Positions 11,838 through 31,574 are shown, counted from the stretch's first letter. The stretch is DNA of 32,088 bases from an uncultured SAR86 cluster bacterium (GCA_902511425.1 CABXFE010000015.1:1-32088); one strand, 5' to 3'. The notes: generated by a model not told the origin, from the sequence alone. A program made the numbers and translations.

Positions 11838-12968
11838 ATGAATTATTGCAAAGAATGTCTTCAGCCTGATACCAGACCAAACACTGTTTTTAAAAAAGGT
11901 GTTTGCCCAGCTTGCAATTATTTTAAAAAATTTAAAGAGGTAAACTGGGAAGAAAGAAAAGGAATTCTATTTGACTTAGTAGAAAAGTATAGAAATCCAT
12001 CAGCTCAATATGACTGCATAATTGGGGTAAGTGGTGGCAAAGATAGCTTGAGGCAGGCTATATGGATAAGAGACTACCTTAAGTTAAGGCCTTTGTTGGT
12101 GAGCATACAATATCCTCCTCATCAGCTAACAAATATTGGAGCAAATAACCTTTCTAATTTAATTAATAGAGGGTTTGATGTTTTTCAAATATGCCCTGCT
12201 CCAATTGTTTGGAAGAGGCTTATGAAAGCAGGATTTAAAATTTTCGGAAATTGGGCAAAATCAACTGAATTAGCACTTTTTTCTGGAGTTCCGAGGCTGG
12301 CTATTGACTTAAAAATCCCTTTAATTTTATGGGGTGAAAATCCTGGACTGCAAAGAGGCGATCTAAAAACTCTAGGAAAAACAGGTTTTGATGGAAATAA
12401 TCTCAGAAATATGAATACACTTTCTGGTGGTGATTTTTCATGGATGTTGAAATCTGGGTTTTCTGAAAAAGATATTCTTCCGTATAAATATCCCTCTAAA
12501 AAAGAAATGTTAAAAAATAATATACAGATTGTTTACCTTGGCTGGTTTTTGGGTGACTGGTCTCTAAAAAATAATGGAATGATATCAATTTTGAATGGAT
12601 TAAAGGTAAGAGATGATTCCCCAAGTAATACATCCGATCTTTTTCAAACTAGCGCATTGGATGAAGATTGGGTTGTCGTGAACCAGCTAATTAAATATTT
12701 GAAATTTGGTTTTGGAAAAACGACTGATTATGTTAATGAAATGATTAGATTGGGTGAAATATCAAGGGATGAAGCAATTAAAATTGTAGAAAAGTATGAT
12801 GGAAAATGCAGTGACAAGTATATAGATGAGTTTTGCAAATATATTGAAATCTCAAGAGACGAATTTTGGATTACAGTACGCAAATTTTCTAATACAGAAC
12901 TCTTTAAAATAGATAGAGCAAATAATAGTATCTCTCCAAAATTTAAAGTTGGTGTTGGAATTATATAA
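11838..12968 (+). CDS. N-acetyl sugar amidotransferase (WbpG/PseA-like), copy 1
   Basis: 376 aa; N-terminal CxxC...CxxC ('CKECLQPDTRPNTVFKKGVCPAC'), PP-loop 'VSGGKDS', 'PLILWGENPGLQ'; coupled to HisH (TAATG). Confidence 0.9.
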   Translation: MNYCKECLQPDTRPNTVFKKGVCPACNYFKKFKEVNWEERKGILFDLVEKYRNPSAQYDCIIGVSGGKDSLRQAIWIRDYLKLRPLLVSIQYPPHQLTNIGANNLSNLINRGFDVFQICPAPIVWKRLMKAGFKIFGNWAKSTELALFSGVPRLAIDLKIPLILWGENPGLQRGDLKTLGKTGFDGNNLRNMNTLSGGDFSWMLKSGFSEKDILPYKYPSKKEMLKNNIQIVYLGWFLGDWSLKNNGMISILNGLKVRDDSPSNTSDLFQTSALDEDWVVVNQLIKYLKFGFGKTTDYVNEMIRLGEISRDEAIKIVEKYDGKCSDKYIDEFCKYIEISRDEFWITVRKFSNTELFKIDRANNSISPKFKVGVGII

Positions 12969-13558
12969 TGAAAAAAAATCTTGTTGGGGTTTTGGATTAT
13001 GGCACAGGGAATCTATCATCTATATTAAACTGCCTTCAATTGCTTGGTTGCAATACCAAAATTGTTAAAAAAGAGATGGACTTAGGCGGAATCTCTACAA
13101 TCATTCTTCCTGGAGTTGGATCAATGAATTTTGCAATGCAAAATATAAAGAAGAATAATTTAGATGTTTTAATACATAAAATTTTTATTAAAAATGAGAT
13201 AAGAATTATTGGTATATGTTTAGGCATGCAGCTATTTTATGAATTTTCTGAGGAGGGAAATACTCCATGCCTCGGGATAATAAAGGGTAAGGTTAAAAAA
13301 TTTCCTAAAAATTATTGTCATATAGGATGGAATAACGTTCACACAAAATTATTGGATGGCATTGAAAATAAATATAAAAATTTTTACTTTAATCACTCTT
13401 TTTATGTTCCCTACAAAAAAAATAATTCTGTAGGAGTAACCAGAAATATTGAAAAGTTTTCTTCAATAGTAAGTAAAGGTTCATTTTTTGGTCTCCAATT
13501 TCATCCTGAAAAAAGTCAACTTATTGGAAGAAAACTTTTAAATGAGTTAATAGCGTAA
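12968..13558 (+). CDS. hisH: HisH-like glutamine amidotransferase subunit
   Basis: 196 aa; 'VLDYGTGNLSSI', nucleophile 'GICLGMQLF', 'HIGWN', 'LQFHPEKSQ'. Confidence 0.93.
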   Translation: MKKNLVGVLDYGTGNLSSILNCLQLLGCNTKIVKKEMDLGGISTIILPGVGSMNFAMQNIKKNNLDVLIHKIFIKNEIRIIGICLGMQLFYEFSEEGNTPCLGIIKGKVKKFPKNYCHIGWNNVHTKLLDGIENKYKNFYFNHSFYVPYKKNNSVGVTRNIEKFSSIVSKGSFFGLQFHPEKSQLIGRKLLNELIA

Positions 13559-14340
13559 TGATTAAAAGAATAGTTGGAGTAATAACTGTAATGAATAACT
13601 GGGCTGTTCAATCTATTGGATATAATACTTATAGACCGCTCGGAAGGCCTGAAATAATTGCTCAAAATTTGGATAGATGGCAATTAGAAGAAATAGTTGT
13701 TTCTGATATTTCAAGATCTAGGCATGGCCTTGGTCCAAATATTGAATTACTTGAAACCATAGCTCAAAAAAAAATATCCACTCCTTTAACCTATATTGGC
13801 GGGATAAGAGATGTATCAGATGCTCTTAAAGTAATTAAGTCAGGCGCCGATAGAATTGGTATTGAAAGTTTAATAGATTCAAAGCCAGAAGCAGCAAAGA
13901 ACATCTCTTCAGCAATTGGAGCACAGGCATTAGTAATAGCGCAATCAGTTTTTACAAATGGAAATGGCTTAAAAAAATTTAACTACATAGATAAAACCAC
14001 CAGCAATTTAAATACTAATAAAATATTAGATAATATGACTTCTGCAAGCGAATTATTGCTAATTGATGTCAAGAATGAGGGCAAGAGTGAATCTTTTAAT
14101 AAAAAAATATTAACTCCATTTCATGAATCTGATATTCAAATTATATGTTTTGGGGGTATTTCAACAGGCTCACAAATCTCCAATCTTTTAAATAATAAAA
14201 ATGTTTCTGCTGTTGGAATAGGTAATTTTTTAAATTATTCAGAATTAGCGAACTGGAATTTAATTAAAAATAGTCAGCATAAATCTACTCGACAACTTAG
14301 TTATGGAAAACTGACCCAAGGTGCAAAAGAATGGTTCTAG
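13558..14340 (+). CDS. hisF: HisF-like protein of a sugar amidation pathway
   Basis: 260 aa TIM-barrel HisF-like ('IVVSDISRSRHGLGPNIELLETIA', 'TYIGGIRDVSDALKVIKSGADRIGIES', 'FGGIS'); TAATG overlap with hisH. Confidence 0.88.
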   Translation: MIKRIVGVITVMNNWAVQSIGYNTYRPLGRPEIIAQNLDRWQLEEIVVSDISRSRHGLGPNIELLETIAQKKISTPLTYIGGIRDVSDALKVIKSGADRIGIESLIDSKPEAAKNISSAIGAQALVIAQSVFTNGNGLKKFNYIDKTTSNLNTNKILDNMTSASELLLIDVKNEGKSESFNKKILTPFHESDIQIICFGGISTGSQISNLLNNKNVSAVGIGNFLNYSELANWNLIKNSQHKSTRQLSYGKLTQGAKEWF

Positions 14341-15581
14341 AGTGTAAGAGATGCTTATATGATTCTAATCATCCTCTTGGTCTTGTAATTGATGAGGAAG
14401 GAGTTTGTAGCGGCTGCAGGATACATGAAGAAAAGAATTCCCTGGACTGGTCACAAAGATTTAAAAAGTTAAAGAAGATTACAAATTCCTACAAATCAAA
14501 AACAGCTAAATACGATTGCATAGTCCCAGTGTCTGGAGGTAAAGATAGTTATTTTATAATAGACATGGTTAAGAATAAGTTAGGGATGAAACCACTACTT
14601 GTAAGTTACAACAAAATGTTTAACTCAAAAGAAGGAATAGATAATATTGCTAATTTAAGAATAAAATTCGATTGTGATTTTATTCAAAAGAATGTAAATC
14701 CTTCCATATTAAAGAAAATTACACGCAAAACTCTCTACAAATACGGAAATCCATACTGGCATTGCATAGCAGGTGAAACAGTATTTCCTGTTCAAATGGC
14801 TGTGCAATTAAAAATCCCGTTAATAATTTGGGGGGCTCATCAAGGTCTAGAGCAAGTCGGAATGTTTTCACATACAGATGAAGTAGAGATGACTAGACGA
14901 TATAGGCAGGATCATGATCTTTTTGGGATAGAGGTTAATGATATATCAGATACTTATGATGACTTAGATGAGCATGATTTAATGAATTTTCTATATCCTC
15001 CTTTTACAGACATTGAAGATATTGGAGTACGAGGAATATATTTAGGTAATTATGTAAGATGGGATCCTTATGCTCAGCACTTACAAATGGTAAAAAAATT
15101 CAACTTCAAAGGCAAAAAACTTTCTAGAACTTTTGACTGTTATGATTATTGTGATAGCTTGCTGTATTCTGATCTTCATGATCTTTTGAAATATTTCAAA
15201 CATGGATATTCAAAAGTGACAGATCATGTTTGCAGAGAAATAAGATTTCATAGAATCTCGAGAGATCAAGGTAAAAAAATTATTGATTTTTATGCTCAAC
15301 AGCAACCAAGAAATATTGATATATTTTGTAAATGGTTGGATATAAATGAAAAGGCATTGCAACTTATTCTTAATAATCATAGAAATAAGTCATACTGGAA
15401 AGAGGTCACTCAAAATAAATGGATTAAACGAAAAAGAGTGTTGGTACCAACCAAAACTCCTCCATCACTTAAGTACCCAAATGTAGCTTTAAAAGCTCAT
15501 AGCGATAATAATTATACGACTGTTGGAAAAGGAGTAAATTGGCCAAAAGATGTGTCAAAACAGATTCGAAAATGGCTATAA
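14331..15581 (+). CDS. N-acetyl sugar amidotransferase (WbpG/PseA-like), copy 2
   Basis: 416 aa; 'CKRCLYDSNHPLGLVIDEEGVCSGC' zinc ribbon, 'PVSGGKDSYFIID' PP-loop, 'PLIIWGAHQGLEQVG'; overlaps hisF by 10 bp. Confidence 0.9.
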   Translation: MVLECKRCLYDSNHPLGLVIDEEGVCSGCRIHEEKNSLDWSQRFKKLKKITNSYKSKTAKYDCIVPVSGGKDSYFIIDMVKNKLGMKPLLVSYNKMFNSKEGIDNIANLRIKFDCDFIQKNVNPSILKKITRKTLYKYGNPYWHCIAGETVFPVQMAVQLKIPLIIWGAHQGLEQVGMFSHTDEVEMTRRYRQDHDLFGIEVNDISDTYDDLDEHDLMNFLYPPFTDIEDIGVRGIYLGNYVRWDPYAQHLQMVKKFNFKGKKLSRTFDCYDYCDSLLYSDLHDLLKYFKHGYSKVTDHVCREIRFHRISRDQGKKIIDFYAQQQPRNIDIFCKWLDINEKALQLILNNHRNKSYWKEVTQNKWIKRKRVLVPTKTPPSLKYPNVALKAHSDNNYTTVGKGVNWPKDVSKQIRKWL

Positions 15582-16619
15582 CTTCAAAATTTTATTTGAA
15601 TAAACTTTAATAAATTTAGCCAGAATTTCCTTCATATCTTTGTTTGCAATATCTACAGTTGCACCAGTATAGTTAGAATTTTTTTGAAAGAAGGATCTTG
15701 CAAAAATAAATGACAGCATATAATCATGTCTGCCAAGAGACCATAAAGGGTTTTCTCCAATATTCATAACATTTTTTTTGTACCATGGATCATGAATTTG
15801 AGAGGACAGGACAAAGTCATAACCCTCAACCTTAAACTCACTATCTTTAAAAAAAATAATTGAAGCATGAAGCGTTCTTTGTAAATTCATCAAGCAAGAT
15901 CCAAAAGGAAACTGTGGAAAGTTTGTGAGAGCTGGATGTGCAATTGTTTCATTTGTCTCAGCAACAGAAAAGAATACTAACTTTGAAAATTCTAGCTTTA
16001 ATTGACGTATATATTGAATATTAGATTTTGCCCATTCATTTCCTGTGATGACAATAATCTTCCCTGGATATTGTTCTAGTATTTTTTTTGGGGGTGGTTT
16101 ATTAACAACTAAATATTTATATGAATTGATGTCAATTTTCTCAAAAGAAAAAAGAGGTCCTGCAATTAATACTGTAGTACTCGTATCAATGGGATCAATA
16201 TCGCTAAATTCATGTTTAAAATTAGCCTCTTTAATATAATAATTTTTTAGTGTAACTATTTCCTTTTCTGAAAGATTCAGTAAATCAATAAATTCTTCAT
16301 TCCAAGAAAAATAAATATAGTTTTTAAGATAATTGGCATCGTCATCTAGTTTATTGGAAATAATCTGAGCTAGGTGTTGATATCGCAGTGAGTATGCATC
16401 TATTAGCTTTAATTTAAAAAAATTTGATTCATATCCGCACCTAAAATACAACGCAATAACTTTCTTTAAAAGTTTATTATTTGGGCTATTTTTATGAGGA
16501 TTGATTCCAAATATATTAAAAAAAAGCCTAATAAATCTGTATATGACTACTGATCGATACATCAATAGAGTTGTGGAGACAAAATGTTTAAAATTTGACA
16601 CTTTACTCATTTTTTTCAA
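15576..16619 (-). CDS. Hypothetical protein, possible sugar transferase (sialyltransferase-like fold suspected)
   Basis: 347 aa; 'TVLIAGPLFSFEKIDINSYKYLVVNKPPPKKIL' followed by 'GSCLMNLQRTLHASIIFF...WSLGRHDYMLSFIFARSFF'; no family firmly recognised. Confidence 0.55.
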   Translation of the reverse strand: MKKMSKVSNFKHFVSTTLLMYRSVVIYRFIRLFFNIFGINPHKNSPNNKLLKKVIALYFRCGYESNFFKLKLIDAYSLRYQHLAQIISNKLDDDANYLKNYIYFSWNEEFIDLLNLSEKEIVTLKNYYIKEANFKHEFSDIDPIDTSTTVLIAGPLFSFEKIDINSYKYLVVNKPPPKKILEQYPGKIIVITGNEWAKSNIQYIRQLKLEFSKLVFFSVAETNETIAHPALTNFPQFPFGSCLMNLQRTLHASIIFFKDSEFKVEGYDFVLSSQIHDPWYKKNVMNIGENPLWSLGRHDYMLSFIFARSFFQKNSNYTGATVDIANKDMKEILAKFIKVYSNKILKL

Positions 16620-18009
16620 TTCCCAACATTTGATGAATTAAATACATGGAAACCTCAAAGGGGTCCTTTGATTTAACCGGAAGAATAGTTGCTGTTTGAT
16701 CAGTAAGAACTCTTTCAATTCTGGGCTTAAAGACATTGATTTGAAATTTTTTCTCTAATCTAATGCACTGCTTTTCACCTAAGACTTTTGCTTGAATATA
16801 TTCCTCAAGACCAGCAATTGGCTCATCAATAGCAACTGAGGATGGGTAAAGAATTTTTGTTAAACCATTATTAATTAGACTTTTGGAAATTTCAAAAAAT
16901 TTGTCAGCATAAATTTCTTTAAATCCCTGAAAAATTTTATCATCAAACTGATCGGACTGTTTGCCAAAAATTTTTGGTGTAGCAAAATAATATAAGTGAT
17001 CAATGGGTTCTTTAATTTGATCAATGTTAAATTTATTTACATCTAATTGTATGGATTTTGCTTTTCCAAAAGACTTTTTATTAATTTCATTTACTAACTC
17101 AGCTGCCTCAACTTTACCAGAGTTGTAGGTAATAATAATATTTGCACCAATTGCTGCTAAGATTTTTGCCGTCCATGCACCAAGCCCTCTGCTGCCACCA
17201 ATAATTAATACTGTTAAATTTTCAAGATTAATATTTAAATTAACCATTTGAATAATTTTGTCATAACTTTCTGGTTTTATTGGCTTTGGTCGAAAAAATG
17301 CAGTGAGGTTTGCATGCAGATTCCTTCCTTGATATGAAAGGTAGACTTGATTAAAACGTTTTTCGATTTTCTGTATGTGGCAACTAGGAATTATTTTATT
17401 TTCATCAAAGCCAATAATGCACTCAGAAAATATAGAATGTAATCCAGGAATCTGCATGCCGATGATGCTTGAAAGTCTAGTAATTTCAAATATACGATAT
17501 TCACCTAAAACTTTTGAGAGATCTGCAAAAAGAATACATAGCTGTGCAATATCTCCAATACAGAAATCATTAAAAATATCGCCTTGGGATAAATCATCTA
17601 TCTTTGTATTTTTCGGATGATCTAATTTTAAAATTTCTTTTTCTATACTAAGTTTTACATCAACCAATGGTTTTTGAATCGGTATTTCACACCTCATGCT
17701 TAATAGAGTAATCTCATTATAATTTTTCAATGTAAGCAATGATTTAGCTTCATCCCAGTAACAAAATACAGGTTCCTCTAAAAAAACAGGTTTAAGAAAT
17801 TTAATTTTATAGGTTTGAAAAATACTTTTTTTATTTTTAACTAAGAGGTCCAAAACCCATAAAAAAGTATGAATTCCATGGACCACCTGTCGCCCAGCAA
17901 TTGTTTTCCTAGCCTCTAATGAGCTTGAATGAAGGGGATTAAAATCACCGCTTATTTCACAGAATAAGCTTTGATCTTTTTCATAAAATTTTCTATGGCC
18001 TATGAGCAT
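16603..18009 (-). CDS. MaoC-type (R)-hydratase double hotdog fused to short-chain dehydrogenase/reductase
   Basis: 468 aa; N-terminal 'EISGDFNPLH...RQVVHGIH' hydratase-2 motif; second hotdog-like segment 'IIGMQIPGLHSIFSE'; C-terminal SDR 'VLIIGGSRGLGAWTA' (GxxxGxG) and 'PSSVAIDEPIAGLEEYIQAK' (S...YxxxK). Confidence 0.85.
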   Translation of the reverse strand: MLIGHRKFYEKDQSLFCEISGDFNPLHSSSLEARKTIAGRQVVHGIHTFLWVLDLLVKNKKSIFQTYKIKFLKPVFLEEPVFCYWDEAKSLLTLKNYNEITLLSMRCEIPIQKPLVDVKLSIEKEILKLDHPKNTKIDDLSQGDIFNDFCIGDIAQLCILFADLSKVLGEYRIFEITRLSSIIGMQIPGLHSIFSECIIGFDENKIIPSCHIQKIEKRFNQVYLSYQGRNLHANLTAFFRPKPIKPESYDKIIQMVNLNINLENLTVLIIGGSRGLGAWTAKILAAIGANIIITYNSGKVEAAELVNEINKKSFGKAKSIQLDVNKFNIDQIKEPIDHLYYFATPKIFGKQSDQFDDKIFQGFKEIYADKFFEISKSLINNGLTKILYPSSVAIDEPIAGLEEYIQAKVLGEKQCIRLEKKFQINVFKPRIERVLTDQTATILPVKSKDPFEVSMYLIHQMLGIEKNE

Positions 18010-18044: not shown

Positions 18045-18785
18045 CTAAGATTCATTTAGGTAATTCTGCACTCTTTGAATATCACTAGGTATATCCACAG
18101 CAATTGATGAGGTGTCTACCTCAAGCATACATATTTTAAGATTGTGATCTAATAATCTAAGCATCTCTATATCCTCAATCGATTCAAGAGAACTCTTTTT
18201 TTTGCCTTCTCCATAAAAACTTAGGCTTTTTTTATTCAGAATATAAACACATACTTGACGATAGGATTTTGCTAACAATTTATTCTGATCTTTTCCTAGA
18301 GGGATTGAGGCTCTAGACATGTATAACAAATCATTATTACTGTTAACTGCAACTTTAATAATATTAGTATCAGCAAATTCACTATCTAGTCTAATTTTAG
18401 CCATGCAATTGAGAACATCGGGACCTTGATTTTTATAAAAATTAATTGCTTCTAAGATGATTCTATCTTCAAGAATTGGTTCATCACCTTGGCAGTTAAT
18501 AACATACTCAAAATTTAATTTTTTATTTGCCTCAGCAACTCTATCCATTCCTGTTTGGCAATCCCCGGAAATTAACAGTGCATTCCCGCCGATGTCCTCA
18601 ATATGGTTTAGAACTTTTTTTGAATCAGTTGCCACCCACACATTTGAACAGTCAAAGTTTGTAATACAATTAGTCCAAATTCTCTCGATCATTGAAATAC
18701 CATTTATTTTTTGAAGAACTTTGCCTGGAAATCTAGAGGAGTTGATGCGAGCTGGAATAATAATTCCAAAATTTTCAATGTCCAT
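18045..18785 (-). CDS. KdsB-like CMP-sugar (3-deoxy-ulosonate) cytidylyltransferase
   Basis: ORF 18045..18806; ATG at 18785 ('MDIENFGIIIPARINSSRFPGKVLQKINGISMIERIW') is a likely start; 'NCQGDEPIL', 'SIAVDIPSDIQRV' are KdsB-like. Confidence 0.85.
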   Translation of the reverse strand: MDIENFGIIIPARINSSRFPGKVLQKINGISMIERIWTNCITNFDCSNVWVATDSKKVLNHIEDIGGNALLISGDCQTGMDRVAEANKKLNFEYVINCQGDEPILEDRIILEAINFYKNQGPDVLNCMAKIRLDSEFADTNIIKVAVNSNNDLLYMSRASIPLGKDQNKLLAKSYRQVCVYILNKKSLSFYGEGKKKSSLESIEDIEMLRLLDHNLKICMLEVDTSSIAVDIPSDIQRVQNYLNES

Positions 18786-19419
18786 AAATCTCCTTCCAAT
18801 CTTCAAATATATGATAATTCATTCTGCGTGCCTCAGCTTCAAGTTCATCTCTTACTAAAGAGTATGGCTTGTAGAAGAAGAAATCGATATTGTTAAGTTT
18901 TGAAGCTTTCATATCTTCAAAGGAGTCACCAATAAAAATGAATTTTGCATTACTTGACTTTACAATCGAGTTGATATTTTGAGCTTTTGAAATAGGTGAA
19001 CCCAGTATTTTTTTAAAAAATTTATTTATTTTTTGCTTTTTAAAAACTGAATTTAATTCGGCCTGATCAGAGCCAGAAACCACGTATTTATCTGATTTAC
19101 ACTCTCTTAAAAAATCTAAAACGCCCTCACACAATGGAGTTAAATGATATTTTTTACCTAGTGTTGTGGCATAGCTCTCAAGGAATAATTTTTCGAAGTT
19201 TGCCACTGGTTTATGTATTAAGTTTTTGAATTGACGAACATGCCAATATCTAGATTTACCAAAATTTTTTTTAAAACTCTCTATGGCCTCTGGAACTTTT
19301 TCGCTAGGAAAGATATCAGATAAATTAAGAAGAACTTCTTTAGCTACTTCAATCTTTAAATTATTAGAGTCTAAAATAACCCCGTCACAATCTAGGATAT
19401 AAGATATAGGTTTTTTCAT
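18775..19419 (-). CDS. HAD-superfamily phosphatase
   Basis: 214 aa; 'YILDCDGVILDSNNLK' motif I, 'VVSGSDQAE' motif II, 'FIFIGDSFEDMKAS' motif IV. Confidence 0.88.
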   Translation of the reverse strand: MKKPISYILDCDGVILDSNNLKIEVAKEVLLNLSDIFPSEKVPEAIESFKKNFGKSRYWHVRQFKNLIHKPVANFEKLFLESYATTLGKKYHLTPLCEGVLDFLRECKSDKYVVSGSDQAELNSVFKKQKINKFFKKILGSPISKAQNINSIVKSSNAKFIFIGDSFEDMKASKLNNIDFFFYKPYSLVRDELEAEARRMNYHIFEDWKEIYGH

Positions 19420-19428
19420 ATCTCGCTT

Positions 19429-21051
19429 TTAATCAATAAGACTAAATATAGATGATGATCTTATGTTGCATGATGTTTTGGTTAAAGAAGATATCTTATC
19501 CCTGCCATGTAATTCTTTAAAAAACTCCAACAAATTATTCATTTGCTTGCTTCTCGGGTCAGATGTTGAGTACCCATCAAATCCAGCGAGATAAATATGA
19601 TTTGCGCCCATTGAAATAGCCGAGGCAATCGCATAACCTCCCGATAAATAACACTGTGAAGAAAAATAATTTTTTTCTATCTTATTTATATCAGAGGCGC
19701 AATGCCCATAATAAAAAAAATCTTTACATCTTTGGAAGGTTTTTTGATTAAAATCATAAATATTTTTTGGCAGGATCAATCTCCTATCAAAATTGCTATA
19801 GCTTTCTAATTCTGAAACTAATGCATTATTTGAAGTTGCACATAAATACTGTGCTTGAAAATATTTTTCAGATTTAATGTTTGCAGAGATACTTACCAAA
19901 TTCCTTTGTTTTTCAAACACTTTACACATTGCTCCAACCTCAGCCATAGACTTACCGCCACCAATGATAAGAAAATCTCTATTTGCGTGTATTTGATTAA
20001 TATTCCCTTTCCTAAAGTCGTCATTGGAGAAATTGGCAGCACTGAAATCAATTGATAGACAATTATTATATTTATCTTCAGAAAATTTATTCGGCTCTGC
20101 CAAACTCTTCATTCTTTCTATAATGTTTATATGTGTAGTTTTTTCCACACCTTGATCCGCTGCGAGAGTTTGAATATATGTTGGATGAATGGAATATTTT
20201 GCAGCCATTCTATATAAAAGGGTGGGACCATATTCATATTTCTTTTTTAAATCGTCAAAATAAGTCGTAACAAGATCATAGATATTTTTCATTTTATCGA
20301 GTGAATGCTCTTTGATGTAAAGAAAAACATCTTCCAAAGAAAGATTTCCAGCCCCCCTTCCCATGCCAGTAACTGTTGCGTCAAGCCATTCTAGTCCTAA
20401 ATTCTTACATTCAAGAGCATTTTCAAGGGCTAGCCCCATATTATTATGAGCATGAAATCCTATTGCTCCTCCCCAGCTTTTACTCATAGTTGTGTATATT
20501 TTGTTTACATCTGTGGATGTCATGCTTCCCAACGAATCAGCAAAATACAATGCTAAAGGCTTTACTTTCCAATCTTTAACAAGGCTGCAAATTTTAGAGA
20601 GTTTATCGCTGTCAATCATGCTAACTTGCATAATATTTAAAGCTACTAGGTATCCTAATTCATTTAAACATTTTAGAATTTGCTCAGATTTAATTACTTC
20701 GTCAGGGTGTGCAGCAATTCTTACAAGAGAAATTTTACTATCTTCTTTTCTTTTAAATAGAGCATTAATTGATTCTTCAATAGTGCTCCCTTCGTTCTGT
20801 AATATAGTTCCGGCATCTATCATCACTCCATATTTAGGGCCGGATGGTAAGTTAATGCTATTAAGAAAGCTTTCAGGAGTATAAGCAAATGGACCTAAAT
20901 GTTTTGATTTTGGAAATTGACGAAGGCCTAACTCTACATAATCAACCTGAGAGTTCGTCATACATTTTAGGTAGCTTGAAACTAGGCCTGCATTAAAATC
21001 CCAATTTGTGTAGTAACCGCCGTCTCTTAAAGTACAATCTAGAATCTTCAT
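19429..21051 (-). CDS. DRE-TIM metallolyase (HMGL / 4-hydroxy-2-oxovalerate aldolase-like) fused to a C-terminal MptE/GT42-like Rossmann domain
   Basis: 540 aa; 'MKILDCTLRDGGYYTNWDF' and 'GFHAHNNMGLALENAL' (metal HxH); C-terminal ~200 aa 'FLIIGGGKSMAEVGAMCKVFEKQRNLVSISANI...YLSGGYAIASAISMGANHIYLAGFDGYS'. Confidence 0.85.
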   Translation of the reverse strand: MKILDCTLRDGGYYTNWDFNAGLVSSYLKCMTNSQVDYVELGLRQFPKSKHLGPFAYTPESFLNSINLPSGPKYGVMIDAGTILQNEGSTIEESINALFKRKEDSKISLVRIAAHPDEVIKSEQILKCLNELGYLVALNIMQVSMIDSDKLSKICSLVKDWKVKPLALYFADSLGSMTSTDVNKIYTTMSKSWGGAIGFHAHNNMGLALENALECKNLGLEWLDATVTGMGRGAGNLSLEDVFLYIKEHSLDKMKNIYDLVTTYFDDLKKKYEYGPTLLYRMAAKYSIHPTYIQTLAADQGVEKTTHINIIERMKSLAEPNKFSEDKYNNCLSIDFSAANFSNDDFRKGNINQIHANRDFLIIGGGKSMAEVGAMCKVFEKQRNLVSISANIKSEKYFQAQYLCATSNNALVSELESYSNFDRRLILPKNIYDFNQKTFQRCKDFFYYGHCASDINKIEKNYFSSQCYLSGGYAIASAISMGANHIYLAGFDGYSTSDPRSKQMNNLLEFFKELHGRDKISSLTKTSCNIRSSSIFSLID

Positions 21052-22263: not shown

Positions 22264-22968
22264 TTAAATAGATACCATTTTTTTGATAAGCAATTCTTGC
22301 GCAAGAATAAAATCTTCTTCCCAATCAATATCAAAACCTTCAAGTCTATCTAAACTAAAAAGGTATGGATGTTTGCCGATTCTATTATTGAATTTTTTAT
22401 AAATTTCATCGCTAGCAAGAAAAACAGCACTGTTAATATCAAATAATTTTTTTAAAGATTGGGTTCTTGGCCATTTTTCTTTTTCTGGATCATAGTTTAT
22501 TGGTCCAGAATCGTCCCAAATAAAATTATATAATGGAGTCACTGTCATCAATGAATCGTATCCCTCTTCAAAACAAGTAAAATACTTTTTAATTATGTGC
22601 GTATATTTTTCAGCAGTCACAAATGGTGATGTAACATGGGTCCATAAAATATGGGCATCATCGATTAATGAATGAGAATAATTAATTAGATCATCAGTGC
22701 TGGTTGCAGACGAGGATAATTCATCCGATCTTTCATCAATTATGATTTTACTATCGTTGAAAGTTGAGACAAAGTCTATTATGTCATGGTCGTTAGTTGA
22801 GAGAATGATCTTTCGAATGGTTTTGCATTTTAGCAGTTGATTTAATTTAATTTCAATTAGCCCATGTCTATAGGTTGCAAATTTCCTAATATTTTTTCTT
22901 GGAACGCGCTCACTCCCGCTTCTGCATGGAAGAAAAGCTATCACAGGTTTTTTTTGTATGTTTTGCAT
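22264..22968 (-). CDS. Acylneuraminate cytidylyltransferase-like protein (NeuA-like)
   Basis: 234 aa; 'VIAFLPCRSGSERVPRKNIRKFA' nucleotide-binding motif, 'ILSTNDHDII', 'LWTHVTSPFV'. Confidence 0.87.
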   Translation of the reverse strand: MQNIQKKPVIAFLPCRSGSERVPRKNIRKFATYRHGLIEIKLNQLLKCKTIRKIILSTNDHDIIDFVSTFNDSKIIIDERSDELSSSATSTDDLINYSHSLIDDAHILWTHVTSPFVTAEKYTHIIKKYFTCFEEGYDSLMTVTPLYNFIWDDSGPINYDPEKEKWPRTQSLKKLFDINSAVFLASDEIYKKFNNRIGKHPYLFSLDRLEGFDIDWEEDFILAQELLIKKMVSI

Positions 22969-23358: not shown

Positions 23359-24252
23359 TTAATTTACAGGGCCGACAATACTAGTAAGCACTGCTGTTAC
23401 AGATAAAATGGCAATAGCTACAAACATTTCAATTGAGATTGATTTGGATAATGTTTTTCTGCCATCATTATTTTTGAGCTGCGGGACTAATTTCAATTTA
23501 TGTGTAGCGGCTATCTTCATTACGCAAATCACTAACAACAATTTAACTAATATGGTTTGTCCATAATTAGTAAATAGCAGAGCATCTAATCCACCCACCA
23601 ACTGAATTGCCAATAATAAGCCAGCGATTAAGAGCAGACTTACCATGACACTAGCTTGTTTTCCAAACCTTTCCATCAATTGATAAAGCTTTTCGAATTC
23701 CAACTTATTGCAGGCTTTTTTAAGAGGGTAAAGGGCACCAAACCACCACGCCATTACAATGACATGCACCATTAATAGACCTTTTTCAAAGACCCCCATG
23801 ACGGAAACGTGTCCAGCCAAAGTAAATGAATAAGAAAGAAAAAATAGACATATGACAAGCACGGCGTTTAAGACATATTTAGTAAGCTTCCAAACACAAA
23901 ATTGAGAAGAAATTACTACTATCGCAACCCCAATCAGGCCAATCAAGCGCCATAGTGTGGTATCGCCTATTGACGAATCCCACATGATACTAATCATATC
24001 TAGGTCTAGCGCTCCTACTATTCCTTCTTCAACCATTGCGCCAGTGTTAGCAAAGAACCAAATTGCATTTGCTAGAAAAGCTATTAAGGCGGCAATAAGG
24101 GTTATCTGACTAAATGATCTTCTTTCTCCATTTTCCAAAGTATTACCGCCGTACACATTGCCAAAAAATGTATATCCAGCAATACAGGCAAAGCCAACGT
24201 AGAACGCAGTTTTCGTCAGCACTATGACCGTATTCCAGATATAAATTTCCAT
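23359..24252 (-). CDS. copD: Copper resistance protein CopD
   Basis: 297 aa, ~8 TM; 'HVSVMGVFEKGLLMVHVIVMAWWFGALYPL' typical of CopD. Confidence 0.9.
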   Translation of the reverse strand: MEIYIWNTVIVLTKTAFYVGFACIAGYTFFGNVYGGNTLENGERRSFSQITLIAALIAFLANAIWFFANTGAMVEEGIVGALDLDMISIMWDSSIGDTTLWRLIGLIGVAIVVISSQFCVWKLTKYVLNAVLVICLFFLSYSFTLAGHVSVMGVFEKGLLMVHVIVMAWWFGALYPLKKACNKLEFEKLYQLMERFGKQASVMVSLLLIAGLLLAIQLVGGLDALLFTNYGQTILVKLLLVICVMKIAATHKLKLVPQLKNNDGRKTLSKSISIEMFVAIAILSVTAVLTSIVGPVN

Positions 24253-24270
24253 AGTAATTACTCTACTTAA

Positions 24271-24618
24271 TTAATGAACCATGAAGCCAAAGTTGTCCTT
24301 CATCTTGTGACCATCTTTACCTAAGAAAGTGACATCTACGATGTAATTGGCTGGAGCCAACTGAGGTAGCTTCCATGAGAATTCACTGCTCGCTTCTTTT
24401 GAAGGTTGAAAGCCAAACTTTACTTTTTTTCCCTGCTTATTTTTTAACGATACTTTGACTAAACGCACTTCTTTACTGAACTTAAGTGTAAGTTCCTCTG
24501 GGGATGTCATTAACATTGCATTATCCGAAGGCGAACTTTTTTCAAGATTTACGTGTGCGAACACAGGGCTACTAATAACAACGCTGATTACCGCTAAGAT
24601 TTTGATTAATGCTTTCAT
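24271..24618 (-). CDS. copC: Copper resistance protein CopC (periplasmic)
   Basis: 115 aa; signal peptide then 'HVNLEKSSPSDNAMLMTSPEELTLKFSKEVRLVKVSLKN...GHKMKDNFGFMVH'. Confidence 0.93.
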   Translation of the reverse strand: MKALIKILAVISVVISSPVFAHVNLEKSSPSDNAMLMTSPEELTLKFSKEVRLVKVSLKNKQGKKVKFGFQPSKEASSEFSWKLPQLAPANYIVDVTFLGKDGHKMKDNFGFMVH

Positions 24619-24650
24619 ATTTACCTCTTTTAAAATTTATGGTTTAACGA

Positions 24651-27600
24651 CTAAATTGTACTTTTTGATAACTCTTGATTAAAGAAATTTATTTCTCTCT
24701 TTTTAACAATTGAATAAATAGCAGGCAGTACAATGAGAGTTAGTAACACTGCACTCGTCATCCCACCGACCATAGGTGCTGCGATGCGACTCATGACCTC
24801 CGAACCAGTGCCTGTTCCATATAAAATAGGTAATAGACCGATGATGATTGTTGCCACGGTCATCATGACAGGGCGTACACGCAAACCAGCGCCATGTAAC
24901 AAGGCATCTTGATAATCTGCGTCAGAAATCTGTTCTGCTCGCTCGGTCGCTTTTTCCTTGAGATCTGTAAGAGCTTGATTCAAGTAAACCAGCATGATGA
25001 CTCCAATCTCTACGGCAACACCTGCTAGCGCAATAAAACCAACACCTACAGCGACGGAAAAATTAAATCCTTCCAAATACATTAGCCATAAGCCACCAAT
25101 CATTGCCATAGGTAATGTCACGACAATAATGGCTACTTCGCTAAACGAGCGGAAATTCAAATAGAGCAAGATCAAAATAATGGCTAGCGTTAAGGGCAAA
25201 ACAAATGTCAATTTTTCTTTTGCTCTTTCCATATATTCATACTGCCCAGCCCAAGAGATTGAGTAACCTGTTGGAATTTCTAGATTTTGCTCAAGGTACT
25301 CTTTAGCATTCTCTACATATGTCCCGACATCCACGCCTTCGATATCAATAAATGACCAGCCATTAATGCGAGCGTCTTCACTTTTTATTCCCGGAGCGCC
25401 ATTCTCAACACGGATATCTGCTACATCTCCCAATGCGATACGCTGATCATTCGGAGTAATAACAGGCAATCTAGCGAGTTGCTCAGGCGAATCTCTATAG
25501 TCTTGTGGATATCTTAAATTGACAGGGTAACGCTCTTGTCCCTCTACAGTTTGAGTGACATTCATGCCTCCAATAGCCGTCGATACCACCTGCTGAACAT
25601 CAGCAATATTTAACCCGAATCGACTCGCCTTTTCACGAGAAATATCTATCTTGATATAACGGCCGCCAGCTACACGCTCGGAATAAACCGATGCTGTTCC
25701 CTCTACCGCTGGTAACAATTGTTCAATTTGCTGACCTATTTCTTGAATCTTATCAAGGTCAGGTCCTGCTACCTTTATTCCAACAGGAGTTTTGATACCC
25801 GTCGCTAGCATATCTATCCGGGTTTTTATTGGCATCACCCAAGCATTTGTTAAGCCGGGTAATTTAACCAATTCATCAAATTCAGCTTTTAAACTTTCAG
25901 TGGTTACTCCGTCTCGCCACTGCTCTTGTGGTTTCAACTGAATGAATGTTTCAATCATTGTTAAAGGGGCAGGGTCAGTGGCGGTTTCAGCACGACCAAC
26001 TTTGCCAAAGACGGTCTCGACTTCAGGCACTGTGCGAAGTAACTTGTCCGTTTGTTGTAATAATTCGCGAGCTTTACCAATGGATATGCCGGGGTAAGTT
26101 GTTGGCATATACATCAGGTCACCTTCATCCAATGGCGGGATGAATTCACTACCAATCTTATTAACAGGCCAAAAACCCACGGCGGTAACCAATAACGCAA
26201 TTACAATGGTTGATTTAGGGAATTTCATAACCTGTCTTAACACAGGCATATACAGAGCGGTCAGTACGCGGTTCAATGGGTTTTTCTTTTCCGATATAAT
26301 CTTTCCACGAATAAAATATCCCATAAGAACGGGAACCAGAGTTATTGCCAATCCAGCGGATGCAGCCATCGCATAGGTTTTAGTGTATGCAAGAGGGGCA
26401 AACATTCTTCCTTCTTGAGCTTCTAGAATAAAGACTGGTAAGAATGACACTGTGATAATAAGTAGACTGAAAAACAATGCTGGACCAACTTCACTTGCAG
26501 CTTTAGCAACAATTTGCCAACGGTTTTCATCCGTCAATGGCACGCCCTTTTTATTAAGAGCTTCCATGTGCTTGTGCATATTTTCAATCATTACAATTGC
26601 ACCGTCCGTCATGGCTCCTATCGCTATTGCAATCCCACCTAATGACATAATATTGGCATTGATACCTTGCATGTACATGATGATAAAAGACACCAAAATT
26701 CCTAAAGGCAAGGTAATAACTGCGACAATGGAAGAACGTAGATGAAACAAAAATGCCGCACAAATTAGTGCAACCACAATTAGCTCTTCAATCAATTTAT
26801 CTGATAGATTGCTAACCGCTCGTTCAATTAACTTAGATCTGTCATAAACAGGAACAACTTCAACACCTTCAGGCAAAGAGGCTTTTAATGATTCAAGTTT
26901 TTCTTTTACACCGTCAATTGTTTGCTGTGCGTTTTCTCCAAAGCGCATTACCACGATGCCCCCAACAACTTCGCCTTCACCATTTAACTCCGCTATCCCT
27001 CGGCGCATCTGTGGACCCAATCCAACATCAGCTATATCGCCAATACGCAATGGCGTACCCTGCTCATTAACGCCTAACGGTATTTTTTCGATGTCACCAA
27101 CGGATTGAATATAGCCAGTGGCAGTTACCATGTACTCAGCTTCGGCCATTTCAACAACAGACGCACCTGTTTCTTGGTTACCTCTTTTCAGCGCCATTTG
27201 AACGTGAGTCAATGGTATACCGTAGGCTCGCAACTTATCTGGATCAACTTGAACTTGGTATTGTTTAACCATGCCACCAATTGCAGCGACCTCAGAAACT
27301 CCCGGAACCGTTTGAAGCTCGTATTTTAAAAACCAGTCTTGGATACTTCGCAACTGACTAAGATCATGATTACCAGATTTATCAGTGAGCGCATATATAT
27401 AAACCCAGCCCACACCTGTTGCATCAGGCCCTAGCTGTGGTTTTGCTGCATCTGGTAAACTCGAAGCAACTTGACTCAAATACTCCAACACACGACTCCT
27501 TGCCCAATAAAGGTCTGTGTCGTCGTCAAATATGATGTAGACATATGAGTCGCCAAAGAACGAATAACCTCGAACCGTTTGTGCTCCCGGTACTGAAAGC

Positions 27601-27818
27601 ATCGCAGTAGTTAAAGGAAAAGTTACTTGATCTTGTACTACCTGAGGTGCTTGTCCCGGATAACTCGTTTTGATAATTACTTGAACATCTGACAAGTCAG
27701 GAAGCGCATCGACAGGTGTATTTTTTAACGCAAATATTCCACCAAATGCGATGATAAGCGTGGTTAATAACACAAAGAAACGGTTACCCACTGACCATCT
27801 AATTATTGATTCAATCAT
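24651..27818 (-). CDS. cusA: Heavy-metal (Cu/Ag) efflux RND transporter CusA/CzcA family
   Basis: 1055 aa; 'NTPVDALPDLSDVQVIIKTSYPGQAPQVVQDQVTFPLTTAMLSVPGAQTVRGYSFFGDSYVYIIFDDDTDLYWARSRVLEYL'; HME-RND features throughout. Confidence 0.96.
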   Translation of the reverse strand: MIESIIRWSVGNRFFVLLTTLIIAFGGIFALKNTPVDALPDLSDVQVIIKTSYPGQAPQVVQDQVTFPLTTAMLSVPGAQTVRGYSFFGDSYVYIIFDDDTDLYWARSRVLEYLSQVASSLPDAAKPQLGPDATGVGWVYIYALTDKSGNHDLSQLRSIQDWFLKYELQTVPGVSEVAAIGGMVKQYQVQVDPDKLRAYGIPLTHVQMALKRGNQETGASVVEMAEAEYMVTATGYIQSVGDIEKIPLGVNEQGTPLRIGDIADVGLGPQMRRGIAELNGEGEVVGGIVVMRFGENAQQTIDGVKEKLESLKASLPEGVEVVPVYDRSKLIERAVSNLSDKLIEELIVVALICAAFLFHLRSSIVAVITLPLGILVSFIIMYMQGINANIMSLGGIAIAIGAMTDGAIVMIENMHKHMEALNKKGVPLTDENRWQIVAKAASEVGPALFFSLLIITVSFLPVFILEAQEGRMFAPLAYTKTYAMAASAGLAITLVPVLMGYFIRGKIISEKKNPLNRVLTALYMPVLRQVMKFPKSTIVIALLVTAVGFWPVNKIGSEFIPPLDEGDLMYMPTTYPGISIGKARELLQQTDKLLRTVPEVETVFGKVGRAETATDPAPLTMIETFIQLKPQEQWRDGVTTESLKAEFDELVKLPGLTNAWVMPIKTRIDMLATGIKTPVGIKVAGPDLDKIQEIGQQIEQLLPAVEGTASVYSERVAGGRYIKIDISREKASRFGLNIADVQQVVSTAIGGMNVTQTVEGQERYPVNLRYPQDYRDSPEQLARLPVITPNDQRIALGDVADIRVENGAPGIKSEDARINGWSFIDIEGVDVGTYVENAKEYLEQNLEIPTGYSISWAGQYEYMERAKEKLTFVLPLTLAIILILLYLNFRSFSEVAIIVVTLPMAMIGGLWLMYLEGFNFSVAVGVGFIALAGVAVEIGVIMLVYLNQALTDLKEKATERAEQISDADYQDALLHGAGLRVRPVMMTVATIIIGLLPILYGTGTGSEVMSRIAAPMVGGMTSAVLLTLIVLPAIYSIVKKREINFFNQELSKSTI

Positions 27819-27832
27819 TATTTTCTTCCTAT

Positions 27833-29587
27833 TTAATGGTTCGAATGATCGACAACAGCTTTCTGTTCATGATTTGTCTCATGTTCGTCGCTGTTTTTTT
27901 CATTTGCTTCAAGGGAAATTTCAGTGATAACCAATTCATCTCTCACTTCAAACGTGAAAGTGACGTTGTCACCAACATTAAAGTCAGCTATTTCTATATT
28001 TTCCGCGACGATAAAATCCATCGTCGCAGCAGGTCTATCCCACTTCTCTATTGGGCCTTGACTAATATTGAAAGTGCGATTGCCTAAGGTTATTTCATTA
28101 ATTAAACCTGAGACTGTTGCAGAGGATACTTCTGGCTGACTCATGATATGAATACCAGTTACTTCATATCCACTATCTTCGGTTTTAGACACCTCGAAGT
28201 GTAAAGATTGACCTGACTTTAAAGAGTCAACATCAACATTCTCAGCCACATTAAAGTCCATTGTCATTTCCGGCCAATCCCAAGCTTCAGCCGGGCCATG
28301 TGTAATATTGACCATACGATGTCCTGTCATGACGCTGTTTACTTCACCTTGCATCCAGATAGAGTTCGGCACCTCATCATGTGTCATACGCTTAAAGTCT
28401 GATGACTTACTTGATTCCGAATCAATTAGGAATTGAGCAGACGTAACAACAACATCATCTTCATTTAAACCGCTCAGAATCTCGATACTATCTTTATCAA
28501 CTCGACCAATAGTTACCTCAATTGATTTAAACTGTCCGTCACCTAAGGCGAGGACGACTCTGTCTTGCTTGCCTGTGCGTATGACCGCTTCTTTAGGAAC
28601 AATAATCGCACTGTCGGCTTGATTCGCATGGATCGAAACTTGTGCGAACATATTGGGCTTTAATTGAAAATCAGGATTACCAAATTTCAAGCGAACTCTA
28701 AGTGTGCGAGTTTTACTGTTTAATGCTGGGTAAACATAGTCAACCACACCTGTCCAATCTTCTCCGGGCAAGTAGTCTAGAGTCATCGATACTGGCAACC
28801 CTTCTTTGATAAGCGCTGCATCTCGTTCAAACACTTCAGCCTCTACCCATACTTGGTCAAGTTTGCCGATACTAAGCAAAGTATCTCCCGGTTTCACATA
28901 GAAACCTTCTCGTATCTTTAACCCATCTACAACACCTGCTTGAGGCGAATAAAAGGTAATTGTTTGTTGAACTTTTTTTGTTTGCTCTAGTTCTTTAATC
29001 AAGCCTGCTGAAAGTTGTAAGGCTTTAAGACGATCTTTAGCTGCCGTAACTAACGAGCCGTTATTGCGCTTTAAGGCGATTAACAATTCTTCTTGAGCAT
29101 TAACTAACTGGGGAGAATATAAGCTGTAAAGGGGTTGACCTTTTTCTACAGGGTCACCCTCAGCCTTAACGTATAGTTTTTCGATCCAGCCATCAACACG
29201 TGGGTGGATATGAATTAGTTTATCTTCGTCATATTGTACATAACCCACCGTAGAGATTTCAGTGTGCATATTTTCTAGCTCAACAGGTGCGGTACGAACA
29301 CCAAGATTATTCACCACATGAGGAGCGACCCTAACAGCACCGGGGCCGAAGTCATCAGTTGATGATTCATCTTCATACACAGGAATTAAGTCCATCCCCA
29401 TAGGAGATTTACCGGGCTTGTCCCGGCGGTAGTTAGAATCCATCGGGGCAACCCAATAAAGCGGCTTTTTCTCTTCAGAATTTGTTTTCGGTCCTTCAGA
29501 GTTAGGATTTAGGAATAAACCCAATATCCCAGCACCTATTGCTGCACCAATGATGATCGCGATAATTATTTTTGTATTAGATGACAT
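27833..29587 (-). CDS. cusB: RND periplasmic adaptor CusB with two C-terminal CusF-like domains and His-rich tail
   Basis: 584 aa; HMBD-like 'YWVAPMDSNYRRDKPGKSPMGMDLIPVYED', adaptor core, then 'ITHGPAEAWDWPEMTMDF' and 'ISQGPIEKWDRPAATMDF' CusF-like repeats; ends 'DEHETNHEQKAVVDHSNH'. Confidence 0.95.
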   Translation of the reverse strand: MSSNTKIIIAIIIGAAIGAGILGLFLNPNSEGPKTNSEEKKPLYWVAPMDSNYRRDKPGKSPMGMDLIPVYEDESSTDDFGPGAVRVAPHVVNNLGVRTAPVELENMHTEISTVGYVQYDEDKLIHIHPRVDGWIEKLYVKAEGDPVEKGQPLYSLYSPQLVNAQEELLIALKRNNGSLVTAAKDRLKALQLSAGLIKELEQTKKVQQTITFYSPQAGVVDGLKIREGFYVKPGDTLLSIGKLDQVWVEAEVFERDAALIKEGLPVSMTLDYLPGEDWTGVVDYVYPALNSKTRTLRVRLKFGNPDFQLKPNMFAQVSIHANQADSAIIVPKEAVIRTGKQDRVVLALGDGQFKSIEVTIGRVDKDSIEILSGLNEDDVVVTSAQFLIDSESSKSSDFKRMTHDEVPNSIWMQGEVNSVMTGHRMVNITHGPAEAWDWPEMTMDFNVAENVDVDSLKSGQSLHFEVSKTEDSGYEVTGIHIMSQPEVSSATVSGLINEITLGNRTFNISQGPIEKWDRPAATMDFIVAENIEIADFNVGDNVTFTFEVRDELVITEISLEANEKNSDEHETNHEQKAVVDHSNH

Positions 29588-30972
29588 TATTTCTCTCCGA
29601 ATTTACCAGTGTGTGCGGGTGCTGATTTTGAATGTGACTGTGCGAAGAAATAATTGATACGAGTTACTGTTTTCAATGCATCAACATCTATTTTTAGTGC
29701 GGAAATTCTGGCATTAAGCATTGCGATTCTAGCTCGAACAACTTCAGAAAAATCACCATCATCGTTGGTATAAGCAGTCAACGAAGCTTCTGCGTGGTCG
29801 TGGGTTTGCGTAAGCAATTGTTCTTTATATATTGACTGCCTTTCTGATAGTCTTTTCAGCTGCCTTAGCTCTTTTTCAATTTCGCTAATCATTTGTTTTG
29901 TTAACAGCAATTTCTCTGTTCTGACAGCTTCTGTTTCCGCGATTGATGCGGCAACTTGTTTATCTTGTCTATTTTTTGTGAATAACGGTAAATCAAACGT
30001 CACACCAACAGAAAACAAGTCTGCTCTATTATCTCCTGATGGCATATCATCACGATAGGCATAGCTGGCGTTTACTCCCCACTGGGGCTTATATTGTTGT
30101 TTGGCTATATCAACAGCTGTTTCAGTCACTTTTTTCTGAACATCAATTGAGCGAATCGCAGGGTGATTTTCTAATTCTAATGCCAGAGCATTTCGCGAAT
30201 AATGAGCCTTCTTTAAAAATGCGGGGGTTTGCAATCGAATTTCAGGTAGAGTTTCTGAGACATTGAATGCCATTGGTTGCGCGTCAAAATCAAACGTTTT
30301 TTCATAGTTACTGTCATCATAAAGATGAAGCCATTCGTTTAGACGAGCAATTGAGGTTTCTAATTTTTGCCTCTGGACTGTCAACCTATCTTCCAATTGA
30401 ACGATTTCTAGTTGTGCTCGAATGACATCTTGTTGTCTTGTTTTTCCAATCACATTTGAGTAACTGGCTTTTGCTATCTCCGCCATCTGCTCAAATAGTT
30501 CCCAATCGTTCTCGATTAACTTAATGGTTTGTTGCGCTAGAAAAGCGTCTAACCAAAGTTGGGAAACTTCACTTTTCAATTTCGCCTTACGATTTTCGCG
30601 TAACAGCGGGTATTTAGTTGATTCGATTTTTAGCTGTTGTCGTTTGAGTTCCAAACTATCTCCTCTAGGAAACATTTGAGAAACTCCAACTTTAAATTGA
30701 GTCATACCTTCCTGATCTAAGTTCCATGTATCTGTTGGTAAATTCATCATGCCCACAGACATAATAGGGTCAGGCAATGTTCCAGAAGCTATACTGTTAT
30801 ACTCAACAGCTTGCTGTTTCAACTTGCTGCCGTGCAGCCAAGGGTCATTTTGCTGTGCTAATGCTATCGCCTGATCAAGTGAAATGATCTTTTCTGCTTG
30901 GGCATAAAATGCAGAAAATCCGATCATTAAACTAACAGTAATCTTTAACAGACTTGGAATTCCAAATTTCAT
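29587..30972 (-). CDS. cusC: TolC-family outer membrane efflux protein (CusC-like)
   Basis: 461 aa; signal peptide, coiled-coil OEP repeats, 'YNSIASGTLPDPIMSVGMMNLPTDTWNLDQEGMTQFKVGVSQMFPRG'; stop/start overlap with cusB. Confidence 0.92.
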   Translation of the reverse strand: MKFGIPSLLKITVSLMIGFSAFYAQAEKIISLDQAIALAQQNDPWLHGSKLKQQAVEYNSIASGTLPDPIMSVGMMNLPTDTWNLDQEGMTQFKVGVSQMFPRGDSLELKRQQLKIESTKYPLLRENRKAKLKSEVSQLWLDAFLAQQTIKLIENDWELFEQMAEIAKASYSNVIGKTRQQDVIRAQLEIVQLEDRLTVQRQKLETSIARLNEWLHLYDDSNYEKTFDFDAQPMAFNVSETLPEIRLQTPAFLKKAHYSRNALALELENHPAIRSIDVQKKVTETAVDIAKQQYKPQWGVNASYAYRDDMPSGDNRADLFSVGVTFDLPLFTKNRQDKQVAASIAETEAVRTEKLLLTKQMISEIEKELRQLKRLSERQSIYKEQLLTQTHDHAEASLTAYTNDDGDFSEVVRARIAMLNARISALKIDVDALKTVTRINYFFAQSHSKSAPAHTGKFGEK

Positions 30973-31469
30973 TAGAATTGCTCCTCATAGGTTTTCACCT
31001 CTGCATACACTTCGCTAGTACCATCTTTAAATAGAATCAACACGTTATAAGGCATAAAACGTTCACCTACTTCCATCCCCGGAGAGCCAACAGGCATCGC
31101 TGGGACTGACAAACCAATGGCGTTGTTGTGTTTTTCAGCTAAAAATTGTTTTATGAATTTGGCAGGCACATGCCCTTCAAACGCAAAGCCATTTCTAGTA
31201 ACGGCTGTATGACAAGAGCGATAATTAGGTTTGATACCGTACTTAGTTTTTATATTGGAGATGTTGCGGTAATCTTTGGAGTGCGCAATCACCCCTTCAT
31301 CTTCAATATGGGTTATCCACTTTTTGCAACATCCACAAGTCGGAGTTTTGTAAACTAATAACTCGATTAGCTTTGCTTCGACATGACTTTCATGATTATG
31401 CTCGGTAGCGTGAGTAAACGCTGGTATTAGCAGTATAGCTACCGCTAACTTAAAAAATAATTTGATCAT
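30972..31469 (-). CDS. DUF411 metal-binding secreted protein
   Basis: 165 aa; 'VYKTPTCGCCKKWITHIEDEG...IKPNYRSCHTAVTRNGFAFEGHVPAKFI...GLSVPAMPVGSPGMEVG'. Confidence 0.93.
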   Translation of the reverse strand: MIKLFFKLAVAILLIPAFTHATEHNHESHVEAKLIELLVYKTPTCGCCKKWITHIEDEGVIAHSKDYRNISNIKTKYGIKPNYRSCHTAVTRNGFAFEGHVPAKFIKQFLAEKHNNAIGLSVPAMPVGSPGMEVGERFMPYNVLILFKDGTSEVYAEVKTYEEQF

Positions 31470-31574
31470 TTTGCCCCCCCAGACAATGCTGGATAAAATA
31501 TAGGCGCAATAGCGCTTAATTAATTAACAAGAAAAGTTATTCTGTGCGTAAATTTTGGACGCACTAACCCTGTG

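Follow-up and report, generated by a model that had tools for sequence, protein, structure and literature searches.

Three packed genes in a polysaccharide locus

What do a KdsB-like cytidylyltransferase, a HAD phosphatase and a DRE-TIM aldolase make when their genes are packed together with neither NeuB nor KdsA in the locus? To our knowledge, the known CMP-ulosonic acids (sialic, pseudaminic and legionaminic acids, and Kdo) all come from PEP-dependent synthases. Genome surveys take NeuB and KdsA as markers. The three genes, called the triad here, lie on contig C15 of a MAG of 1.14 Mb that is 56% complete. This contig is the entire window, i.e., the whole stretch of 32,088 bases that was analyzed, and the reading ends at the contig ends.

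All three genes are on the minus strand. The aldolase gene (19429-21051) codes for 540 residues with an HMGL-like domain (PF00682, 1e-23), the HAD gene (18775-19419) for a 214-residue phosphatase of the HAD_2 type (PF13419, 9e-12), and the third gene (18045-18785) for a 246-residue KdsB-like cytidylyltransferase (PF02348, CTP_transf_3, 4e-43; NF009905, the NCBIfam KdsB subfamily, 1e-70). Pfam and NCBIfam profiles confirmed the KdsB-like, HAD and HMGL/DRE-TIM aldolase families assigned in a sequence-only reading of this DNA, and the tight packing that it described stands in its ORFs, coordinates and strand. The 9-bp gap at 19420-19428 is present, and the 11-bp overlap at 18775-18785 is borne out by the start of the KdsB-like gene, an ATG at 18785 preceded by a strong ribosome-binding site, GGAAGGAGA. 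The catalytic residues D10, D12, S115, K145, D165 and D169 of the phosphatase are kept in about 90 to 100% of 56 triad HADs.

The triad is surrounded on C15 by polysaccharide genes: glycosyltransferases, an acetyltransferase and a WbuX-HisH-HisF-WbuX amidotransferase cassette. As the sequence-only reading had noted, NeuB and KdsA are missing from the window; a profile search found no NeuB or DAHP/KdsA-family gene on C15. A second cytidylyltransferase gene (22264-22968, minus strand; PF02348, 1e-13) is PseF-like, with a score below the cut-off of the PseF model.

A conserved metal site and an additional domain in the aldolase

The N-terminal DRE-TIM domain of the aldolase (20047-21051, minus strand; residues about 1 to 335) belongs with the family of PDB entry 3dxi (profile E value of 1e-122), DmpG being more remote (1e-30). 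Entry 3dxi, which shares this N-terminal-domain family, is BVU_2661 of Bacteroides vulgatus, a structural-genomics "putative aldolase" whose PDB title records no function. An AF2 model of the domain, built with 64 natural homologues (pLDDT of 91.6), matched 3dxi with a TM score of 0.87 by target and DmpG (1nvm) with 0.74. The nearest characterized NCBIfam model is that of 4-hydroxy-2-oxovalerate aldolase (TIGR03217), against which the protein scored 81 bits, short of the equivalog cut-off of 286.

Residues R9, D10, Y13, W17, N139, D172, H200, H202, N204 and R232 are invariant in the 64 aldolase homologues. In DmpG, we take the metal ligands to be Asp18, His200 and His202, the catalytic arginine Arg17 and the general base His21. 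Alignment with 1nvm places D10, H200 and H202 together with R9 at this metal/Arg site (64/64). In contrast, the position of the base His21 is held by Tyr13, again in 64/64 homologues, and in the GMGRGAGN sequence the invariant Arg232 is found where DmpG has Ala. As the metal/Arg site is kept while the base and Arg232 are changed, pyruvate-enolate chemistry with a second substrate unlike that of DmpG appears likely from the sequence, and the replacement of His21 by Tyr13 suggests that the reaction itself may differ. Thus, the triad aldolase resembles DmpG, BphI and AmnG in its fold and its metal/Arg active site, and pyruvate-enolate chemistry is expected of it. It differs from them in these two residues, in falling far below the equivalog cut-off, and in its polysaccharide context and extra C-terminal domain.

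The latter (19429-19998, minus strand; residues about 352 to 540) is an MptE/sialyltransferase-like Rossmann domain. It scored 27 bits against PF06002 (CST-I, GT42), for which the Pfam cut-off is 25, and gave a weak profile match to Cst-II (E value of 0.03). When modeled alone (AF2, pLDDT of 90), its closest structure was the archaeal HPPK/MptE 8sd5 (TM score of 0.60), followed by SteA and human ST8SiaIII; the fold of the model is closer to MptE/HPPK than to GT42, and an active GT42 sialyltransferase is one candidate reading of the domain. MptE-like proteins also account for 8 of the 140 next-door neighbors in triad loci, where the adjoining genes are glycan genes, and a GT29 sialyltransferase-family protein is encoded near the triad in one locus (L115).

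Linkage and fusion of aldolase and cytidylyltransferase genes

If the triad is a functional unit, it should recur elsewhere, as the sequence-only reading proposed to verify. We scanned 85,462 species genomes as well as viral contigs. This yielded at least 80 and at least 54 loci, respectively, which were chosen by aldolase similarity and do not amount to a census. Among the matches listed, the scan loci together with relatives and plasmids made 85 distinct cellular loci, next to 35 distinct viral loci. Co-occurrence was scored over all reading frames. A CTP_transf_3 gene lies within 4 kb on the same strand in 70 of the 85 cellular loci among the matches listed (45 KdsB-like and 28 PseF-like, with both in 3 loci), a HAD gene is found in 53, and both accompany the aldolase in 50; 15 are without a nearby cytidylyltransferase and 32 without a recognized HAD. 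Only 12 of these 85 listed loci contain NeuB anywhere in the fetched sequence (up to about 21 kb). Among the viral matches listed, a cytidylyltransferase is present in 30 of 35 loci, and aldolase and KdsB form a single ORF in 22 of 35. The triad recurs in several phyla, its loci spanning Pseudomonadota, Bacteroidota, Bacillota, Cyanobacteriota, Omnitrophota and others. An annotated triad is also found on Leisingera plasmids in the plasmid collection, and two partial matches come from phages in the phage collection, one annotated as 4-hydroxy-2-oxovalerate aldolase and one unannotated.

A set of 274 genomes drawn evenly from the class of the window provided a fairer test than loci chosen by similarity. 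The two-domain aldolase occurs in 6 of the 274, each time with an adjacent cytidylyltransferase (6/6), PseF-like in five cases, including the window with its additional KdsB, and KdsB-like in one. A PseF-like relative is found in eight genomes, of which five belong to those six (hypergeometric probability of 2.7e-8, for the PseF-like overlap alone). The arrangement of the triad genes is not due to chance.

The cytidylyltransferase partner of the aldolase can be KdsB-like or PseF-like. The PseF-like protein of the window, a distant relative of PseF, clusters with aldolase-adjacent proteins, and its subfamily takes the place of KdsB in other genomes. With two different cytidylyltransferases on C15, the aldolase could serve either.

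A product that is probably not Kdo

One alternative product of the triad would be CMP-Kdo itself, the aldolase acting as a non-homologous substitute for KdsA that joins pyruvate and arabinose-5-phosphate. The nearest solved relative of the KdsB-like protein is indeed a capsule enzyme, KpsU (1gq9, E value of 5e-32), and some carriers of the triad lack KdsA, both of which would fit. The sugar site speaks otherwise. The CTP/Mg residues R10, R15, K19, D95 and D219 of Aquifex aeolicus KdsB (PMC3149649) have counterparts in R13, R18, K22 and two Asp positions, retained by the window protein as well as by the triad enzymes. In contrast, the window protein reads RQVCVY where Kdo enzymes have a KHxGxY motif. 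The comparison of KQVCIYAF with RHIGIYAY in triad and housekeeping KdsBs, from which six triad KdsBs nearer the housekeeping clade were left out, gave Gln in 61/61 triad and fused KdsBs against His in 22/22 housekeeping KdsBs, as well as a sugar-domain Lys in 61/61 against Arg in 22/22; Cys/Gly and Phe/Tyr also differ in most. These positions are located in the C-terminal domain, to which Kdo binding and dimerization have been attributed (PMC3149649), and the changed residues would contact the sugar.

The phylogeny points the same way. In a tree of 96 sequences, the triad KdsBs are apart from the housekeeping KdsBs that their genomes also encode; of the 23 housekeeping sequences, 22 form one group (98/76), and the fused viral KdsBs form one clade (99/90). 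The window KdsB sits on a long branch in a group of 23 rows, 20 from triads and 3 viral (95/87), and six triad KdsBs fall nearer the housekeeping clade, so that the separation holds for most triad enzymes. In the 274-genome sample, RQVC-type KdsBs are found in the window, in G196 (judged by its place beside the aldolase) and in G320; the gene sits with the aldolase in the first two and with a HAD at a contig end in the third. Two further genomes (G229 and G350) have close KdsBs with HVG/HIG in place of the RQVC type and no aldolase of the triad type.

Gene content also argues against CMP-Kdo, as 26 of 30 carrier genomes have KdsA above the cut-off in addition to the triad. In Bacillus sp. ISL-41 (G108, locus L102), a single run comprises kdsB, kdsA (above the cut-off), a SIS-like protein with resemblance to KdsD and another protein that is KdsC-like, the last two identified by reading the sequence, and continues with two MptE-like proteins, the aldolase, a second KdsB and a HAD. 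That a complete Kdo gene set lies next to this triad suggests another product. This, together with the changed sugar-site residues, makes it probable that the triad product is not Kdo, and we regard the CMP-Kdo proposal as unlikely.

Carriers without NeuB or KdsA

Alternatively, the genes may be linked without acting in sequence, the cytidylyltransferases activating nonulosonic acids made elsewhere by NeuB and the aldolase supplying or degrading something else. The genome of the window has two NeuB genes, and amidotransferase genes typical of nonulosonic acid modification are close to the triad. However, the two NeuB genes lie on another contig, C2, and each has a cytidylyltransferase gene of its own at a distance of no more than about 1.5 kb; the sole DAHP_synth_1 match in this 56% complete MAG is a 350-residue DAHP synthase on C51.

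Although 20 of the 30 carrier genomes have NeuB matches, the triad also occurs without them. In genome profile searches, neither KdsA nor NeuB was found in Rossellomorea aquimaris (G107, locus L064), with a KdsB-like partner, or in a Bacillus MAG (G109, locus L117), with a PseF-like one. Weak KdsA and NeuB matches in these two genomes coincide in one 365-residue and one 397-residue frame, the size of DAHP synthases, and the triad enzyme is their only CTP_transf_3 protein besides one weak, GlmU-sized match each (458 to 471 residues). Mangrovimonas (G124, locus L120) has a PseF-like triad and no NeuB beyond weak matches of DAHP-synthase size. Thus, a NeuB or KdsA from outside the locus, which the sequence-only reading had considered as a possible feeder, is not hidden in G107 or G109. 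NeuB-free carriers exist for both kinds of partner, and the gene fusion in viral contigs joins aldolase and KdsB directly. We therefore consider a non-sequential relationship quite improbable.

The last alternative is a CMP-phosphonate pathway, and DRE-TIM enzymes do also act on phosphonopyruvate. Although bacterial phosphonate tailoring is reported to involve cytidylyl activation commonly (PMC6697681), we rejected this pathway as very improbable because searches of carrier genomes that would require PEP mutase did not reveal it: none scored above the cut-off in G109 or G134, the matches above it in G107 and G108 are only isocitrate-lyase-sized frames on other contigs, and the enzyme is not among the commonest neighbor families of triad loci.

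A proposed aldolase-based route to a CMP-ulosonic acid

We estimate at roughly two in three the probability that the three genes by themselves encode a pathway leading to a CMP-activated 3-deoxy-2-ulosonic acid, which would be destined for a surface glycan. In this proposal, a metal-dependent class-II DRE-TIM aldolase would condense the enolate of pyruvate, or of a closely related 2-oxo acid, with an aldehyde sugar phosphate. The resulting 3-deoxy-2-ulosonate phosphate would contain the bond for which KdsA and NeuB use PEP. Its phosphate would be stripped by the HAD enzyme, as an analogue of KdsC or NANP, and the KdsB-like enzyme, or its PseF-like counterpart in other species, would join the acid to CMP. 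The CMP-sugar could then pass to a transferase, perhaps a neighboring MptE/GT29-like protein or the C-terminal domain of the aldolase itself. The listed loci contain no dedicated enzyme for a special aldehyde. This hints at a common metabolite, and our guess would be glyceraldehyde-3-phosphate or a pentose phosphate. Cleavage is unlikely to be the working direction of the aldolase, since it is fused to the CMP-transferase in viruses. The aldolase-HAD-KdsB route put forward in the sequence-only reading thus gains support from linkage, fusion and synthase-free carriers, and is refined in that its product is probably not Kdo and its partner may be PseF-like.

The three-step logic of C-C bond formation, dephosphorylation and CTP-dependent activation is that of the Kdo pathway (KdsA-KdsC-KdsB, or KpsU), to which the KdsB-like partner is homologous. 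Unlike that pathway, the triad has a DRE-TIM aldolase and not KdsA for the C-C bond, a phosphatase of the HAD_2 and not the KdsC type, and altered sugar-site residues in KdsB. With the NeuB-NeuA, PseI-PseF and LegI-LegF systems it would share a CMP-activated 2-ulosonic acid destined for surface glycans, and it differs from them in that the locus is without NeuB, as are several carrier genomes altogether. The triad would follow the known logic of CMP-ulosonate synthesis, with another enzyme to form the C-C bond and probably another sugar as its product.

A literature search, with most subscription journals outside its scope, found no description of an aldolase/KdsB/HAD pathway, and nothing on point for 3dxi, for phage kdsB with an aldolase or for pentulosonic acid. 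The triad is apparently a compact, widely shared and undescribed assembly line, although a paper outside the scope of the search may exist. We lean, if only slightly, toward the broader view that it represents a third general route to CMP-ulosonates, in which an aldolase uses pyruvate and not PEP, and that it makes an unrecognized surface-glycan sugar acid in at least five bacterial phyla and in many viruses encoding the aldolase-CMP-transferase fusion. If so, surveys based on NeuB and KdsA overlook a class of acidic surface sugars in Gram-negative, Gram-positive and viral genomes, and the triad offers a three-gene test set for finding the sugar. The aldolase-synthetase fusion could also be useful for enzymatic synthesis.

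Other aldolase neighborhoods and flanking genes

Some relatives of the aldolase accompany TPP enzymes, radical-SAM-like proteins or aminotransferases, which indicates that the family is not tied to a single pathway. In eight viral loci (L166-L172 and L176), a family aldolase lies beside a TPP-dependent acetolactate-synthase-like enzyme and others, without a cytidylyltransferase. The two-domain aldolase of three Pelagibacter-type loci (L052, L057 and L097), likewise without a cytidylyltransferase, adjoins a 529-residue protein whose sequence resembles that of a radical-SAM/B12 enzyme. In rhizobial and Paraburkholderia loci (L041, L043 and L106, the first two on plasmids), a single-domain aldolase is found with SDR genes; aminotransferase-like and HAD parts are joined in one protein in L041 and are neighboring genes in L043. 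Other genes separate the aldolase from a KdsB of a different clade in L050, L065 and L073; in L073 they code for an LdpA-like Fe-S protein and for what looks, from its sequence, like an HpaI-type aldolase.

In the window, two genes 3' of the triad on the same strand are possible operon members. One codes for a MaoC-SDR fusion (16603-18009, minus strand; PF01575 and PF00106) that has no homologue among the other triad loci fetched. The other, at the end of the same-strand run (15576-16619, minus strand), codes for an orphan protein of 347 residues with no Pfam or NCBIfam match and no homologue in the fetched triad loci. The amidotransferase cassette (11838-15581, plus strand) has a WbuX-HisH-HisF/WbuZ-like-WbuX order, with two WbuX amidotransferases in a single operon; such cassettes are used in the amidation of acetamido groups on nonulosonic acids. 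The region from 23359 to 31952 carries copper/silver-type RND efflux and CopD/CopC-like genes, the RND gene having a G+C content of 42%, compared with 31 to 34% in the triad and PseF-like genes.
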